From Butyrivibrio sp. (GTDB lineage Bacteria; Bacillota; Clostridia; Lachnospirales; Lachnospiraceae): DNA of 37,299 nt. Location of the stretch: assembly GCA_024690485.1 (NCBI GenBank), contig JAILPB010000015.1, positions 1 to 37,299 on the forward strand, read 5' to 3'. Positions within the stretch are counted from its first letter, which is position 1; each line of letters starts with the position of its first letter. Position numbers and translations under genes: made by a program. Under the pieces are notes generated by a model. That model saw only the letters and a list, made by a program, of their open reading frames with translations, searched no databases and was not told the DNA's origin. This document shows positions 8,824 to 33,016 of this stretch, piece by piece.

Positions 8824-8865
8824 AAAGTAATTGAAATATAAATTTTTAATCATGTGGGGAGATTA

Positions 8866-10644
8866 ATGAAAAAAAAGAAGTACATCGGTTTATCTATATT
8901 GGGAGCGGTATCTTTACTTGCAGTGTCTTGCTCTTTTTCTGAAAAAAGTGAAACTACAGAAATACCCTCAGAGGTGGAAGCTTCAAAGGACGATGTCTCT
9001 AAAAGTGAAGTCTTAGGTGATAAAAAATCCGACAAAGAAGTTACGCAAGATGATAAGGAAACGGTAGAGTCTGCAGAAACAACAGCCGCTGAGCCAAAAG
9101 CTCGAAATTTAAAAGAACTGGTTTTAGAGGAAGCTATAGTAGTTGATGATACAGATAAGGATATTTTGGATAGTGCTTCAGGATATGAAGTTGATTATCC
9201 CGTAAATTCTGCAGATAAAGAGATACCTTCGGCTTATGTATCAGATACATCCGGGGAAAAGGACTTTGTTACACCTGTTAAAAATCAGGGTTATACCAAT
9301 CTGTGCTGGTCATATTCAACTATATCTGCAGTGGAGAGCGATATTTTGACCCATCACACTGATATTGATCAGAGTAATCTAAATCTGTCTGAAAAGCACA
9401 CAGCTTACTATAATATGCATAAAACTTCCGGGTCATACCTTGGAAACATAGATGAGGACTACAGAGAGTTTGTCTTTGACGGGGAAGACGATGAGTGGAT
9501 CAAGGATTATGATACCAGCTATGTCTCTGTTGGCGGAGTTACAGACTACTGCCTGTCTGTGCTTACAGCCTGGAAAGGTCCCGTAACTGACGAGGATTCA
9601 AATTCTTTTCATGTGATAAAGGGGCAGACTGATCTGTATTCCAAAAACGGCGATGTGCCATCTGATGCTTATACGGAGCCTGTTTGCCATGTGCAGGGTG
9701 TTTTCGAAGTTCCTGCCACAGAGAAAAACAGGGATTTAATAAAGAGGCTTATTATGGAGCACGGATCCGTTACCTGCAGTGTATGCGCAGCAGATGAGTA
9801 CTGGACCGGCCATAAGACATCCCTTTATGACTACAAAAAATACGGACCTGATAACGTGGCAGACCATGAAGTTGTGATCGTTGGCTGGGATGATGATTAT
9901 GATGCCTCAAATTTCATTACAAGGCCCAAGGAGAACGGTGCTTTTATCTGCAAGAATAGTTGGGGAACAAAGCAGGGGCAGGGAGGATATTTTTATCTGT
10001 CTTATGAAGATAGTATATTAACTTCCAATATTGTAGCTGCTTATGAGAGCGTTCTCCCGGGAGAAGAGGGCTGGTACGACAATAATTATCAGCATGCGGG
10101 ATTTATAACTCATATGACTGATGCCATCGTGGATCAAAAAAATGTTGTATATGCTTATGAAGACAACGATGCCGAATATGGTGTGATGTTCGATATGGGA
10201 GGCCGCGAGAGTCTTAAGGCTGTGGGCTTTTTCTCCATGGCTACAGATATGGACTATGGAGTTTTTGTTTATAAAAACCCGGATTCTGCGGAGGAAGACG
10301 CCATAAATCTTTTGTATATGGAGCAGCCTGTAAGCTACGAAGATTGTCATTTTATAACAGGTGGCTATCATACCGTAACGCTCTCTTCTCCGGTGGAGGT
10401 AAATGAGGGCGACAGGATATTTGTTGTAATACGGCCTAAAGAAAAAGCCAAGCTTTTGTATGAAAAAGCTATGGATAGCACAGCAGACGTAAATTACGAT
10501 GACTGGAAGCATGACCTTGGAGCAATACACACTCATAATGAAGCAAGCGGTAAAAGCTATTTATTGGATGAGTATGGTTCCTTTTATCTGAAGCAGACGG
10601 ATAAGGACTTCTTTATCAAGGCCTATACCTGTAATTTGGAATAA
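8866..10644 (+). CDS. Papain-like (C1 family) cysteine peptidase, predicted lipoprotein
   Basis: Lipobox-like LLAVSC; TPVKNQGYTNLCWSYSTISAVES (Gln/Cys), DHEVVIVGWDDDY (His), CKNSWGTKQGQGGYFYLSY (Asn). Start moved from 8854 (GTG) to ATG 8866 with GGGGAGA RBS. Confidence 0.9.
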   Translation: MKKKKYIGLSILGAVSLLAVSCSFSEKSETTEIPSEVEASKDDVSKSEVLGDKKSDKEVTQDDKETVESAETTAAEPKARNLKELVLEEAIVVDDTDKDILDSASGYEVDYPVNSADKEIPSAYVSDTSGEKDFVTPVKNQGYTNLCWSYSTISAVESDILTHHTDIDQSNLNLSEKHTAYYNMHKTSGSYLGNIDEDYREFVFDGEDDEWIKDYDTSYVSVGGVTDYCLSVLTAWKGPVTDEDSNSFHVIKGQTDLYSKNGDVPSDAYTEPVCHVQGVFEVPATEKNRDLIKRLIMEHGSVTCSVCAADEYWTGHKTSLYDYKKYGPDNVADHEVVIVGWDDDYDASNFITRPKENGAFICKNSWGTKQGQGGYFYLSYEDSILTSNIVAAYESVLPGEEGWYDNNYQHAGFITHMTDAIVDQKNVVYAYEDNDAEYGVMFDMGGRESLKAVGFFSMATDMDYGVFVYKNPDSAEEDAINLLYMEQPVSYEDCHFITGGYHTVTLSSPVEVNEGDRIFVVIRPKEKAKLLYEKAMDSTADVNYDDWKHDLGAIHTHNEASGKSYLLDEYGSFYLKQTDKDFFIKAYTCNLE

Positions 10645-10648
10645 AAAA

Positions 10649-10775
10649 GAACACCAATGGTGTTCGTGATTTTTGGGAGGTGGCTGTACGATGGGGAATC
10701 GTACAGCCATGTTGTATGAAAAAAGTTTTGGGGTTCAGAAGATGTCTTCATCTCTGATATGAATATGTTATGATT
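10649..10775 (+). ncRNA. Copy A of a recurrent three-hairpin intergenic element (family not recognised)
   Basis: GAACACCAATGGTGTTC hairpin, ttttGGGAGG, GGCTGTACGAT-GGGGA-ATCGTACAGCC hairpin, TATGAAAAAAGTTTTG, TCAGAAGATG...CATCTCTGA hairpin, TGTTATGAT. Same architecture as 32751-32868. Confidence 0.65.
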
Positions 10776-10928
10776 AATATGTTGCCAAAATGTGACAGGA
10801 TTCTAAATAAAAGCTAGTAAGTTTATTAAGGATACATTTGCCCTTTATTAACCATAAATAAAAATGAACGGATTTGCGTCTTGGCATTTTTTGAAGCCTT
10901 TGTGTGGCCTTACATATAGGAGTTTACT

Positions 10929-12278
10929 ATGAAAAATAAGATTTTAACAAAACTGATAGGCCTTGGTCTGGTTTCTGTTTTGGTATCCGGACAGCTGATC
11001 GGATGCGGAAATAAAACGACAAATAATGATGATATGGCGGGCTCTTCTAATACAGAAGTTCAGGAAAAATCTGAAGAAATTCCTGAAGAGGAAGAGGCAG
11101 AAGAGAAAGAAGTGGAAGAAGTTATGGAAGATGAGCTTCAGGCTGATGAAGAAGAGGAGAGTGAATCAGGGTCTAAGGAGGAAGACATGAAAGTCGATAT
11201 CTCAGTTCAGGCAGCAGATCTTGCAATTGATGTTTTAAAAAGTAATGATGATAAGAATAAGCTTATTTCTCCGCTTTCAGTTATGATGGCCATGGGAATG
11301 GCTGCTAACGGAGCAGCAGGAGATACAAGAAGCGAACTCTTTGATTCCCTTTCAATATCAGACGAGGAACTCTTTAACAAAGCCATGAAACAATATGTGA
11401 AGGCCGCAGGAAAAGAGGATTCTCAGCTAAAAATAGCAAACGGAATCTGGGCAAACTTAGACGTGTCCGTAAATACCAAATATGAAAAGATGATGGGCAA
11501 AGACTACGGAGCTAAGATAGAAGCTAAGGAGTTTGACGCATCTACAGCTGAAGAAATTAATAGTTTTGTTAATGATAATACTGACGGACAGATCGAGAAG
11601 CTCTTTGACGAAGTACCTTTCGATGCCTCAGTGATCCTGGTTGATGCCCTTTCCTTTGAAGGAAAGTGGAAAGAGCCCTTTGAAAACAGCGATATTCTTA
11701 CAGGAATGACATTTACTGCTGAGGATGGAAATGCGTCCGAAGTTACTATGCTTAAAGGAAAGAGAGACGAACTTATAGAATTAGACGATGCCGTGGGCTT
11801 TATTTTGCCCTATAAAGGAGGTAAGTATACTTTTGCCGCACTTCTTCCACAGGAGGGACAAAGCGTTAGTGAGTTTATCGGTTCAATTGATGGCAAAAAG
11901 CTTACAGATGCATTGAACAATCCGCTGGAAGCTGAAGTGAAATTTTTTCTTCCGGAGTTTTCATTTGATTACAACCTGGAGCTTACAGATTTCTTTATGG
12001 GAAAAGGAGCAAAAAAGGCATTTTCTGCAGATGCTGATTTTTCTGAAATGCTAGGAGAAAACAGCGGATATTTCATAAGCTCTGTTTTACATAAGACACA
12101 CATAACTCTGGACAGAGCAGGAACGAAAGCTGCAGCTGCCACGGATGTTATGGTTGTGGGATCAGCTCTTGATATGAATAGTGTGGAGATTTATCTGGAT
12201 AGACCTTTTGTATATATGATCCTTGATTCACAGACAAATACCCCTGTATTTATGGGCGTTTGCGATGAGATAAAATAA
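10929..12278 (+). CDS. Serpin (I4 family protease inhibitor), predicted lipoprotein with acidic linker
   Basis: Lipobox-like GQLIGC; Glu-rich linker; NKLISPLSVMMAMGMAANGAAGDTRSEL; hinge/reactive loop GTKAAAATDVMVVGSALD; C-terminal DRPFVYMILDSQTNTPVFMGVC. Confidence 0.93.
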   Translation: MKNKILTKLIGLGLVSVLVSGQLIGCGNKTTNNDDMAGSSNTEVQEKSEEIPEEEEAEEKEVEEVMEDELQADEEEESESGSKEEDMKVDISVQAADLAIDVLKSNDDKNKLISPLSVMMAMGMAANGAAGDTRSELFDSLSISDEELFNKAMKQYVKAAGKEDSQLKIANGIWANLDVSVNTKYEKMMGKDYGAKIEAKEFDASTAEEINSFVNDNTDGQIEKLFDEVPFDASVILVDALSFEGKWKEPFENSDILTGMTFTAEDGNASEVTMLKGKRDELIELDDAVGFILPYKGGKYTFAALLPQEGQSVSEFIGSIDGKKLTDALNNPLEAEVKFFLPEFSFDYNLELTDFFMGKGAKKAFSADADFSEMLGENSGYFISSVLHKTHITLDRAGTKAAAATDVMVVGSALDMNSVEIYLDRPFVYMILDSQTNTPVFMGVCDEIK

Positions 12279-12390: not shown

Positions 12391-12687
12391 GTGGGGAGAG
12401 ACGATAAATCACCTGCAGAAATTCGTACAACTGATAAATTAAAGATACAGAAGATATTACTCGAAGCTGGATATATGGTCGAGATGGGAAATGGAAGCGT
12501 TCCTACCGTTGTCTGCAAGAAGAGAGAAGACATGAGTAAGGACCTGGCTGCCATCAGGAAAATCCTAAAGGAACAGCGTTATGAAGGAAGCTTTGGTGTG
12601 AGAGCACCCAGAAAAACAGATGAGCTTCCGGTTCAGGGTTCAGAAACAGAAGAAACCATGGATGACGTAGTAGCTGTTGCAGGCTGA
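12391..12687 (+). CDS. Conserved small protein of unknown function
   Basis: GTG start with ATAGGAGG RBS (track start 12313 lacks a good RBS); 98 aa soluble. Confidence 0.6.
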   Translation: MGRDDKSPAEIRTTDKLKIQKILLEAGYMVEMGNGSVPTVVCKKREDMSKDLAAIRKILKEQRYEGSFGVRAPRKTDELPVQGSETEETMDDVVAVAG

Positions 12688-30797: not shown

Positions 30798-32759
30798 ATG
30801 GCAAAAGGTTTTCCGCCTATTAGCAAAAATGATATGAAAGAGATGGGCATAGACCAGCTTGACTTTGTCTATGTATGTGGTGATGCATATGTGGATCATT
30901 CAAGCTTTGGTGCGGCCATCATTGTAAGAACATTAGAGGCTCACGGTTATAGCGTGGGCCTTATTTGTCAGCCCGATTTTAGGGATGAAAACAGTATAAC
31001 CGTTCTGGGAGAGCCAAGGCTTGGGTTCCTGGTTTCTGCAGGCAACATGGATTCCATGGTAAACCATTACACCGTTGCCAAAAAGAAGAGGAAGACAGAT
31101 GCCTACAGCCCCGGGGGAGTAAGGGGAAAGCGCCCGGATTATGCGGTTATCGTTTATTGCAATCTGATCAGAAAAATATACAAAAACAATCCAATAATAA
31201 TCGGTGGAATCGAAGGAAGTTTAAGAAGACTTGGGCACTACGATTACTGGTCAAATAAGGTCAGAAGATCGATCCTTCTTGATTCCGGTGCAGATATCGT
31301 ATCCTACGGAATGGGAGAAGTGAGCATCGTTGAGATAGCAGATGCGCTATCTTCCGGATTAGATGTAAAGGATATTACCTTTGTAAATGGAACAGTCTAT
31401 AAGACAAGAAATGAAGAAGACATCTATGATGCAGTAAGACTTCCGGATTTTGAGGATATAAAAAGCGATAAGAAGAGCTACGCCGAGAGCTTTAGGATTC
31501 AGTATCAGAACACTGATCCTTTTAATGGAAAAAGACTTTATGAAACCTATGATAAGAGTCTTTTCGTTGTACAAAATCCCCCTGCAAGGCCACTTACCCA
31601 GCAGGAACTTGATGATACCTATGACAGACCTTACATGAGGGCTTGGCATCCAATTTACGATTCTCAGGGAGGTGTTCCAGCCTTCAATGAGATAAAGTAC
31701 TCAATAACTTCAAACAGAGGTTGCTTTGGGGAGTGTAATTTCTGTGCGCTTACATTCCATCAGGGAAGAATAGTACAGTGCAGAAGCCATGAATCGATTA
31801 TTAAAGAGGCAAAGCTTTTTAAGGAAGAAAAAGACTTTAAGGGATATATCCATGATGTGGGAGGTCCCACAGCCCAGTTTAGAGCACCCGCCTGCAAAAA
31901 GCAGATGACAAAGGGCGCTTGCCCAAATAAGAAGTGTCTGCATCCCGAAGTATGTAAAAATATGGATGTGGATCACAAGGATTATATGAAGCTTCTCAAA
32001 AAGCTAAGAGAAATGCCGGGAATCAAAAAGGTATTTGTAAGAAGCGGTATTAGATTTGACTACCTTCTTGCAGACAAGGACCAGAGCTTTTTAAGGGAGC
32101 TTTGTAAGCATCATATAAGCGGACAGCTCCGTGTTGCTCCGGAGCATATATCAGATAACGTCCTTGATAAAATGGGTAAACCCAAGGTCAAGGTATATGA
32201 CAAGTTTATCGAGAAGTTTGATAAGGTGAACAAGGAACTAGGACTTAATCAGTACGCGGTGCCTTATCTTATGTCATCCCATCCAGGAAGTACCTTGAAG
32301 GATGCAATTGCTCTTGCTGAATACTTATGTAAGCACAGGCTGAGCCCCGAGCAGGTTCAGGACTTTTATCCAACGCCGGGAACAGTGTCCACCTGTATGT
32401 ATTACACAGGCATAGACCCTATTTCCATGAAGGAAGTATATGTAGCCAAAGATCCTCATGAAAAGGCTATGCAGAGGGCACTTATTCAGTTTAGAAGACC
32501 TGAGAACTATGACCTTGTAAAGGAAGCTCTGTTAAAGGAGCACAGAGAAGACCTTATAGGATTTGGGAAGGAATGCCTTATTCCTCCGAGAAAGCCTACG
32601 GAAGACAGAGATTTCCACAGGAAAAATACCGGAAATAAGGGTAATAAGACAAATAAAGGTAATACCGGAAATAAAGGCTTTTCAAAGGATAAAAAGAAAA
32701 AACCTGTAAACAAGGGAAAAACCGGACCTAAGCGAAATGGTAAAAAAAATAGAGCTTAA
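30798..32759 (+). CDS. YgiQ family radical SAM protein
   Basis: NRGCFGECNFCALTFHQGR CxxxCxxC cluster motif; GGIEGSLRRLGHYDYWSNKVRRSIL; basic Gly/Asn/Lys tail. Start moved from 30711 to ATG 30798. Confidence 0.93.
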   Translation: MAKGFPPISKNDMKEMGIDQLDFVYVCGDAYVDHSSFGAAIIVRTLEAHGYSVGLICQPDFRDENSITVLGEPRLGFLVSAGNMDSMVNHYTVAKKKRKTDAYSPGGVRGKRPDYAVIVYCNLIRKIYKNNPIIIGGIEGSLRRLGHYDYWSNKVRRSILLDSGADIVSYGMGEVSIVEIADALSSGLDVKDITFVNGTVYKTRNEEDIYDAVRLPDFEDIKSDKKSYAESFRIQYQNTDPFNGKRLYETYDKSLFVVQNPPARPLTQQELDDTYDRPYMRAWHPIYDSQGGVPAFNEIKYSITSNRGCFGECNFCALTFHQGRIVQCRSHESIIKEAKLFKEEKDFKGYIHDVGGPTAQFRAPACKKQMTKGACPNKKCLHPEVCKNMDVDHKDYMKLLKKLREMPGIKKVFVRSGIRFDYLLADKDQSFLRELCKHHISGQLRVAPEHISDNVLDKMGKPKVKVYDKFIEKFDKVNKELGLNQYAVPYLMSSHPGSTLKDAIALAEYLCKHRLSPEQVQDFYPTPGTVSTCMYYTGIDPISMKEVYVAKDPHEKAMQRALIQFRRPENYDLVKEALLKEHREDLIGFGKECLIPPRKPTEDRDFHRKNTGNKGNKTNKGNTGNKGFSKDKKKKPVNKGKTGPKRNGKKNRA

Positions 32760-32868
32760 ATAGCTCTTTTGGGAGGAGGAGCTGTCAGGTGGGGAACCCG
32801 ACAGCCCTGGTATGAAAAAAGTTTTGTTGGGGGAGTCAGAAGTTATTCACTTCTGATATTGTTATAAT
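32751..32868 (+). ncRNA. Copy B of the three-hairpin intergenic element
   Basis: AGAGCT-TAAAT-AGCTCT, ttttGGGAGG, GCTGTCaGGT-GGGGA-ACCcGACAGC, TATGAAAAAAGTTTTG, TCAGAAGT-TATTC-ACTTCTGA, TGTTATAAT; matches copy A. Confidence 0.65.
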
Positions 32869-33016
32869 ACAACCTAAATTTGTCTAAAGTATGTACGTTC
32901 CCTTAAAGAAACATAACAACTGTTAGGAAATACTTAAGGAAGTATTATTAAATCATAAACTATCATATTTTTGCGTTTTTGTAAATAGAATATGATTAAA
33001 AAGGAAGGATATTTAT

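Follow-up and report, generated by a model that had tools for sequence, protein, structure and literature searches.

A multi-copy family of minus-strand small RNAs in Lachnospiraceae, predicted to pair with the translation starts of exported-protein mRNAs

Two related elements in a Butyrivibrio contig

The window analyzed in this study is a stretch of 37,299 nucleotides from Butyrivibrio sp. (contig JAILPB010000015.1) that carries two intergenic copies of one element, at positions 10649-10775 (copy A) and 32751-32868 (copy B). The blocks of the two copies, their order, and their coordinates were as a sequence-only reading had given them, and the letters are correct. None of 100 shuffles reproduces the GGGAGG..GGGGAA arrangement, which the window contains twice. 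A third sure copy (copy C, G000:C108), which has TATGAAAAAAGTTTTG and its context exactly, lies elsewhere in the genome. The excess of folding over shuffled sequences is large for copy A (z = -6.7), moderate for copy B (z = -3.1), and weak for copy C (z = -2.1).

Copy A is convergent with a gene for a papain-family peptidase and divergent from a serpin gene, and copy B is convergent with a gene for a radical-SAM protein and divergent from a gene for a cation efflux protein. The serpin, which has a lipoprotein-like N-terminus, adjoins the papain-family peptidase with its lectin-like domain (positions 8854-12278), and the two are a possible protease-inhibitor pair.

When folded on the minus strand, RNA A and RNA B each form three hairpins within 116 nt. 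From 5' to 3' on this strand, the layout is a promoter, a 5' hairpin, the conserved unpaired segment CCCCCAACAAAACUUUUUUCAUACC, a covarying hairpin with a UCCCC loop, an unpaired CCUCCC, and an intrinsic terminator. The CUCCCCCAACAAAACUUUUUUCAUACC strap between the 5' and central hairpins is shorter in copy A. The features are listed below, with the 5' ends (~10758 and ~32857) placed according to the position of the -10 element.

10643..10758, minus: sRNA gene A (~116 nt; 5' end ~10758, 3' end ~10643); match to covariance model R1 at 10758-10677 (66.7 bits, E = 1.8e-15), fold and ends
10765..10770, minus: putative -10 hexamer TAACAT of sRNA A; promoter alignment of 33 copies
10778..10822, minus: 11-bp direct-repeat region upstream of sRNA A (CTGTCACATTT / TGGCAACATAT); lag-11 periodicity in 33 aligned promoters (z = 6.2)
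10735..10757, minus: 5' hairpin of sRNA A (formerly "hairpin 3"); minus-strand fold
10710..10734, minus: unpaired segment of sRNA A with anti-start element AAAACUUUUUUCAUAC; invariant in alignment A2 and complementary to AUGAAAAAA starts
10681..10709, minus: central covarying hairpin of sRNA A with UCCCC loop (formerly "hairpin 2"); 11 of 11 pairs with double changes, 99.8% of cells paired
10675..10680, minus: unpaired anti-Shine-Dalgarno CCUCCC of sRNA A; alignment
10643..10665, minus: intrinsic terminator GAACACCATTGGTGTTCTTTTTT of sRNA A (formerly "hairpin 1"), abutting the stop codon of the convergent peptidase gene (10642-10644); terminator scan
32742..32857, minus: sRNA gene B (~116 nt; 5' end ~32857, 3' end ~32742); R1 match at 32857-32775 (98 bits, E = 1.4e-23), fold and ends
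32864..32869, minus: -10 hexamer TATTAT of sRNA B; promoter alignment
32872..32915, minus: direct-repeat region upstream of sRNA B (CGTACATACTTTAGACAAATTT); promoter alignment, lag-11 periodicity
32836..32856, minus: 5' hairpin of sRNA B; fold
32809..32835, minus: unpaired CUCCCCCAACAAAACUUUUUUCAUACC of sRNA B; nearly invariant in 40 homologues
32777..32808, minus: central hairpin of sRNA B; covariation and fold
32771..32778, minus: anti-Shine-Dalgarno CUCCUCCC of sRNA B; alignment
32742..32767, minus: intrinsic terminator of sRNA B, overlapping the 3' end of the convergent radical-SAM gene; terminator scan and neighboring genes

Strand, covariation, and distribution of the family

The element had been read on the plus strand, where the GGGGA loop, GGGAGG, and GGGGGA are invariant or nearly so. 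Transcribed from that strand, an RNA might display GGA in its hairpin loops as a CsrA-type sponge does, or serve the serpin and efflux genes as a leader. Between copies A and B, both double compensatory changes reported in the central stem are genuine. A third changed position in the same stem had been missed, where C-G becomes A.C on the plus strand. Since this mismatch is a legal G.U wobble on the minus strand, it was the first sign that the latter is the functional strand.

A stem that is conserved as RNA drifts through G-U pairs on the strand that is transcribed. Across 36 distinct sequences, the central stem shows 32 G-U wobbles in the minus-strand reading and 1 in the plus-strand reading. 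Approximately 45 more copies, almost all of them from Butyrivibrio, came from a pattern scan. Of 49 copies, 42 have an intrinsic terminator after the element on the minus strand and 1 has one on the plus strand. Moreover, promoters lie upstream on the minus strand, with 16 copies of a sigma-28 type and 33 of a direct-repeat type. On these three independent lines of evidence, each copy is a predicted small RNA gene of approximately 116 nt on the minus strand. With stem changes that fit the minus strand by 32:1, terminators and both promoter types oriented the same way, and downstream genes on the plus strand that differ and are unrelated from copy to copy, a plus-strand RNA is very improbable. 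By the same strand evidence, GGA loops as in CsrA/RsmA sponges are not on the transcribed strand. A cis-acting leader or riboswitch would lie upstream of its gene in the same orientation, but the RNAs run away from the serpin and efflux genes and converge on their other neighbors. The element is therefore not a cis-element of the serpin gene, from which the RNA gene is directed away. Reading ATGAAAAAAGTTTTG as a leader peptide was rejected since the reading frames differ from copy to copy.

Thus, the proposal of a new structured RNA with three hairpins stands as to the RNA family, its covariation, its homologues, and the lack of an Rfam match, whereas its strand and anatomy had to be replaced. 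The variable "hairpin 1" said to open the element is the intrinsic terminator of the minus-strand RNA, and "TGTTATGAT" corresponds to its -10 region in reverse complement. Likewise, the GGGGA loop is the complement of the UCCCC loop, and the conserved unpaired CAAAACUUUUUUCAUA has "TATGAAAAAAGTTTTG" as its complement.

Lachnospiraceae are a major fiber-degrading family of the gut and rumen. Covariance model searches of genomes from the genus and from Lachnospiraceae recovered homologues beyond copies A and B. A model built from 40 sequences (R1) detects one to five copies per genome in 72 of the 79 species that represent the genus (45 of 47 when only good genomes are counted), and candidates in approximately 10 other genera of a family-wide sample. 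A second model (R2) was trained on both the genus copies and divergent members preceded by the promoter boxes described below. Of 397 Lachnospiraceae genomes sampled, R2 matches 158 at E<=1e-3 and ~96, about a quarter, at E<=1e-5. A fourth candidate copy in the source genome (G000:C77:18492-18564, 48.8 bits with R2) was not counted, as it overlaps a gene start and is without a convincing promoter.

Structural conservation was as the sequence-only reading had supposed, with covariation in the 40 homologues far above shuffled and slid controls. All 11 central pairs show double changes in two alignments, again far beyond both kinds of control. What distant members still share is UUUUUCAU and CCUCC, which are the anti-start and anti-Shine-Dalgarno elements. 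A dispersed repeat (REP- or MITE-like) or a bidirectional terminator with no function of its own would suit the several intergenic copies per genome and the terminator hairpin, but it is hardly credible for an element that has only one to five copies per Butyrivibrio genome, is most conserved in its unpaired segments, has its own promoter at each copy, and keeps covarying stems and fixed spacers across genera.

No Rfam 15 family was reached at the gathering threshold, and nothing relevant appeared at a relaxed threshold, where scores were at chance level only (e.g., CyaR). No earlier description of the family was found in a literature search that left outside its scope the supplementary tables of large RNA surveys (e.g., PMC8040213). 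This is a previously undescribed, multi-copy RNA family of Lachnospiraceae from rumen and gut. If confirmed, the covariance model would annotate hundreds of RNA genes that currently have no annotation.

Promoters and candidate regulators

All 16 copies with a sigma-28-type promoter carry a TTAAGTTTT-type -35 element and CCGATAT just before the 5' hairpin. These promoters were found in one subgroup of Butyrivibrio, and sigma-28 is encoded in the genomes tested, including the source genome. The other 33 copies have a TANNAT -10 element preceded by 11-bp direct repeats, for example CGTCCATATTT TGTCCAAATTT. Self-similarity of these 33 promoters at lag 11 is 0.535, compared to 0.304 at other lags (z = 6.2). 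The same periodicity is present in 18 R2 copies from other genera that were not used for training (z = 5.3), of which 14 have box pairs spaced by 11, 22, or 33 bp, versus 7 of 665 windows upstream of ordinary genes; the box is absent from the R2 model itself. Promoters from other genera contain up to four 11-bp repeats (TTCACA-N5-TTCACA-N5-NTCAAA-N5-KTCACA). A box pattern that was itself designed from the sRNA promoters matches 22 sites in 9 genomes, with 0 matches for the reversed control. Nearly all of these sites precede a recognizable family member, many of which are too divergent for R1.

From this arrangement of repeats, we infer that an OmpR/PhoB-type response regulator controls the direct-repeat promoters, and if confirmed, the family would provide a handle on that regulator. 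A crude motif screen revealed no two-component operon beside the sRNA genes. TTCACA also fits a broad PhoP-type consensus, but pstS promoters of the same genomes carry related but different repeats, of a TTTACA type. With TTTACA rather than TTCACA in the pst promoters, phosphate control of the sRNA genes is a possibility only.

Many Butyrivibrio loci, among them L032, L037, L038, L043, L058, L069, L076, and L092, have two sRNA genes approximately 600 bp apart, with a sigma-28 promoter at one and a direct-repeat promoter at the other (e.g., L032 200-1300). In L032 and L043, the pair flanks a gene for a protein of ~106 amino acids and is followed by a cbiD-like gene. In the window, an open reading frame of 98 amino acids (12391-12687, plus strand) resembles this protein by eye (TTDKLK...EAG...VPTVVC), which suggests a shared neighborhood history.

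Predicted targets and relation to known small RNAs

The unpaired segments of the sRNAs are complementary to Shine-Dalgarno sequences and AUGAAAAAA starts. In a class sample outside Lachnospiraceae, R2 had weak matches only (E>=1.8e-4), and those inspected were mostly reverse complements of gene starts (GGAGG..ATGAAAAAAATT), which implies that the RNA is built like an antisense to them. A family spanning the order or class was rejected because these outside matches are weak and, among those inspected, mostly lie antisense to ordinary gene starts.

Pairing was evaluated in ~0.8 Mb from each of two genomes representing two genera (G321 and Butyrivibrio G397), using simple gene calls and an RNA from which the central hairpin had been deleted as an approximation. 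In both genomes, the RNA outperforms 40 of 40 shuffled RNAs in mean duplex energy at translation-start windows, whereas internal coding windows show no advantage over shuffled RNAs. Export signals were assigned to the top 6% of genes by simple custom rules. In G321, 20 of these genes have signal-peptide-like sequences (6 expected; shuffled maximum 11) and 7 encode lipoproteins (shuffled mean 1.3). The trend is weaker in G397, with 13 signal-peptide-like genes (shuffled maximum 12) and 7 lipoproteins (shuffled mean 3.5, maximum 6). Given the pairing at start windows and the enrichment of exported proteins, translational repression at the Shine-Dalgarno sequence and start codon of exported-protein mRNAs is therefore the most likely mechanism, as predicted from sequence complementarity.

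Our overall explanation, which we hold with good though incomplete confidence, is that of a trans-acting, promoter-controlled sRNA from the minus strand. Transcription would begin just before the 5' hairpin and end at the third hairpin, under a response regulator of the OmpR/PhoB type bound to the 11-bp direct repeats or, in one Butyrivibrio subgroup, under sigma-28. In the RNA, UCCCC would then be exposed in a loop, with CCUCCC forming an unpaired tail and CUUUUUUCAUAC an unpaired strap. These parts are predicted to pair with mRNA start regions (GGAGG...AUGAAAAAAG) typical of exported proteins, and the pairing would block ribosome loading. Hfq was not found in any of eight Lachnospiraceae genomes searched with TIGR02383, although controls were detected. 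A bolder proposal, which we regard as tentative, is that a two-component regulon consists almost entirely of this sRNA family. The family might then serve as a master RNA against translation starts, reducing the synthesis of exported AUGAAAAAA proteins without Hfq, with the flagellar sigma factor feeding into the same core in Butyrivibrio.

The sRNA might instead act mainly on a protein or on a few specific partners, for example as a sponge for an sRNA or protein, rather than on many translation starts. The near-invariant 5' part CUCCCCCAACAAAAC in Butyrivibrio is longer than pairing with start regions needs, and C-rich motifs can bind other RNAs. We nevertheless consider this unlikely, because complementarity to start windows exceeds that of all shuffles in two genera and distant members retain the anti-start and anti-Shine-Dalgarno parts.

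The proposed repressor of translation starts resembles the csRNAs of the CiaRH regulon in Streptococcus (PMC3091779, PMC4507080). Both have several paralogous sRNAs per genome, an intrinsic terminator, direct repeats for a response regulator with N5 spacing (11-bp period) approximately 10-12 bp upstream of the -10 element, and hairpins that flank an unpaired region with anti-Shine-Dalgarno and CAU anti-start sequences. In the Lachnospiraceae RNA, the CAU and CCUCC elements are unpaired, and the duplex statistics support complementarity to the ribosome-binding region and AUG. However, the CiaR box is NTTAAG-N5-TTTAAG located 10 bp before the -10 element (PMC3091779), whereas the promoters described here have similarly spaced boxes of the TTCACA-N5 or GTCCA type, often in four repeats, and not TTTAAG-N5-TTTAAG. 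Furthermore, a covarying hairpin with a UCCCC loop splits the anti-Shine-Dalgarno from the anti-start element, one subgroup uses sigma-28, and the RNAs occur in another bacterial class with no sequence relation shown.

LhrC of Listeria monocytogenes is likewise a multicopy sRNA whose redundant UCCC motifs lie in loops and in an unpaired stretch; it is controlled by the two-component system LisRK and pairs with the mRNA of a surface protein in its start region (PMC4132741). The Lachnospiraceae RNA has one to five copies, a UCCCC loop, and unpaired CUCCCCC and CCUCCC. LhrC differs in sequence and in hairpin order, belongs to Listeria, and is not known to have a conserved CUUUUUUCAU strap. RsaE/RoxS, FsrA, and RNAIII of Firmicutes have an unpaired C-rich motif said to bind Shine-Dalgarno sequences (PMC4132741). 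The new RNA shares a motif of this kind, but it lacks an Rfam match to them at the relaxed threshold, is multi-copy, and has the additional anti-start strap. It likely works in the manner of csRNAs and LhrC, judging by these parallels, with membership of neither group supported. If confirmed, csRNA/LhrC-type control of exported proteins would extend to commensal Clostridia that yielded no Hfq in the search. The literature search gave no previous report of a conserved family of trans-acting sRNAs in Lachnospiraceae. Clostridium phytofermentans is reported to produce a strong non-coding transcript that is unexplained, and another upstream of an ABC transporter (PMC5171806).
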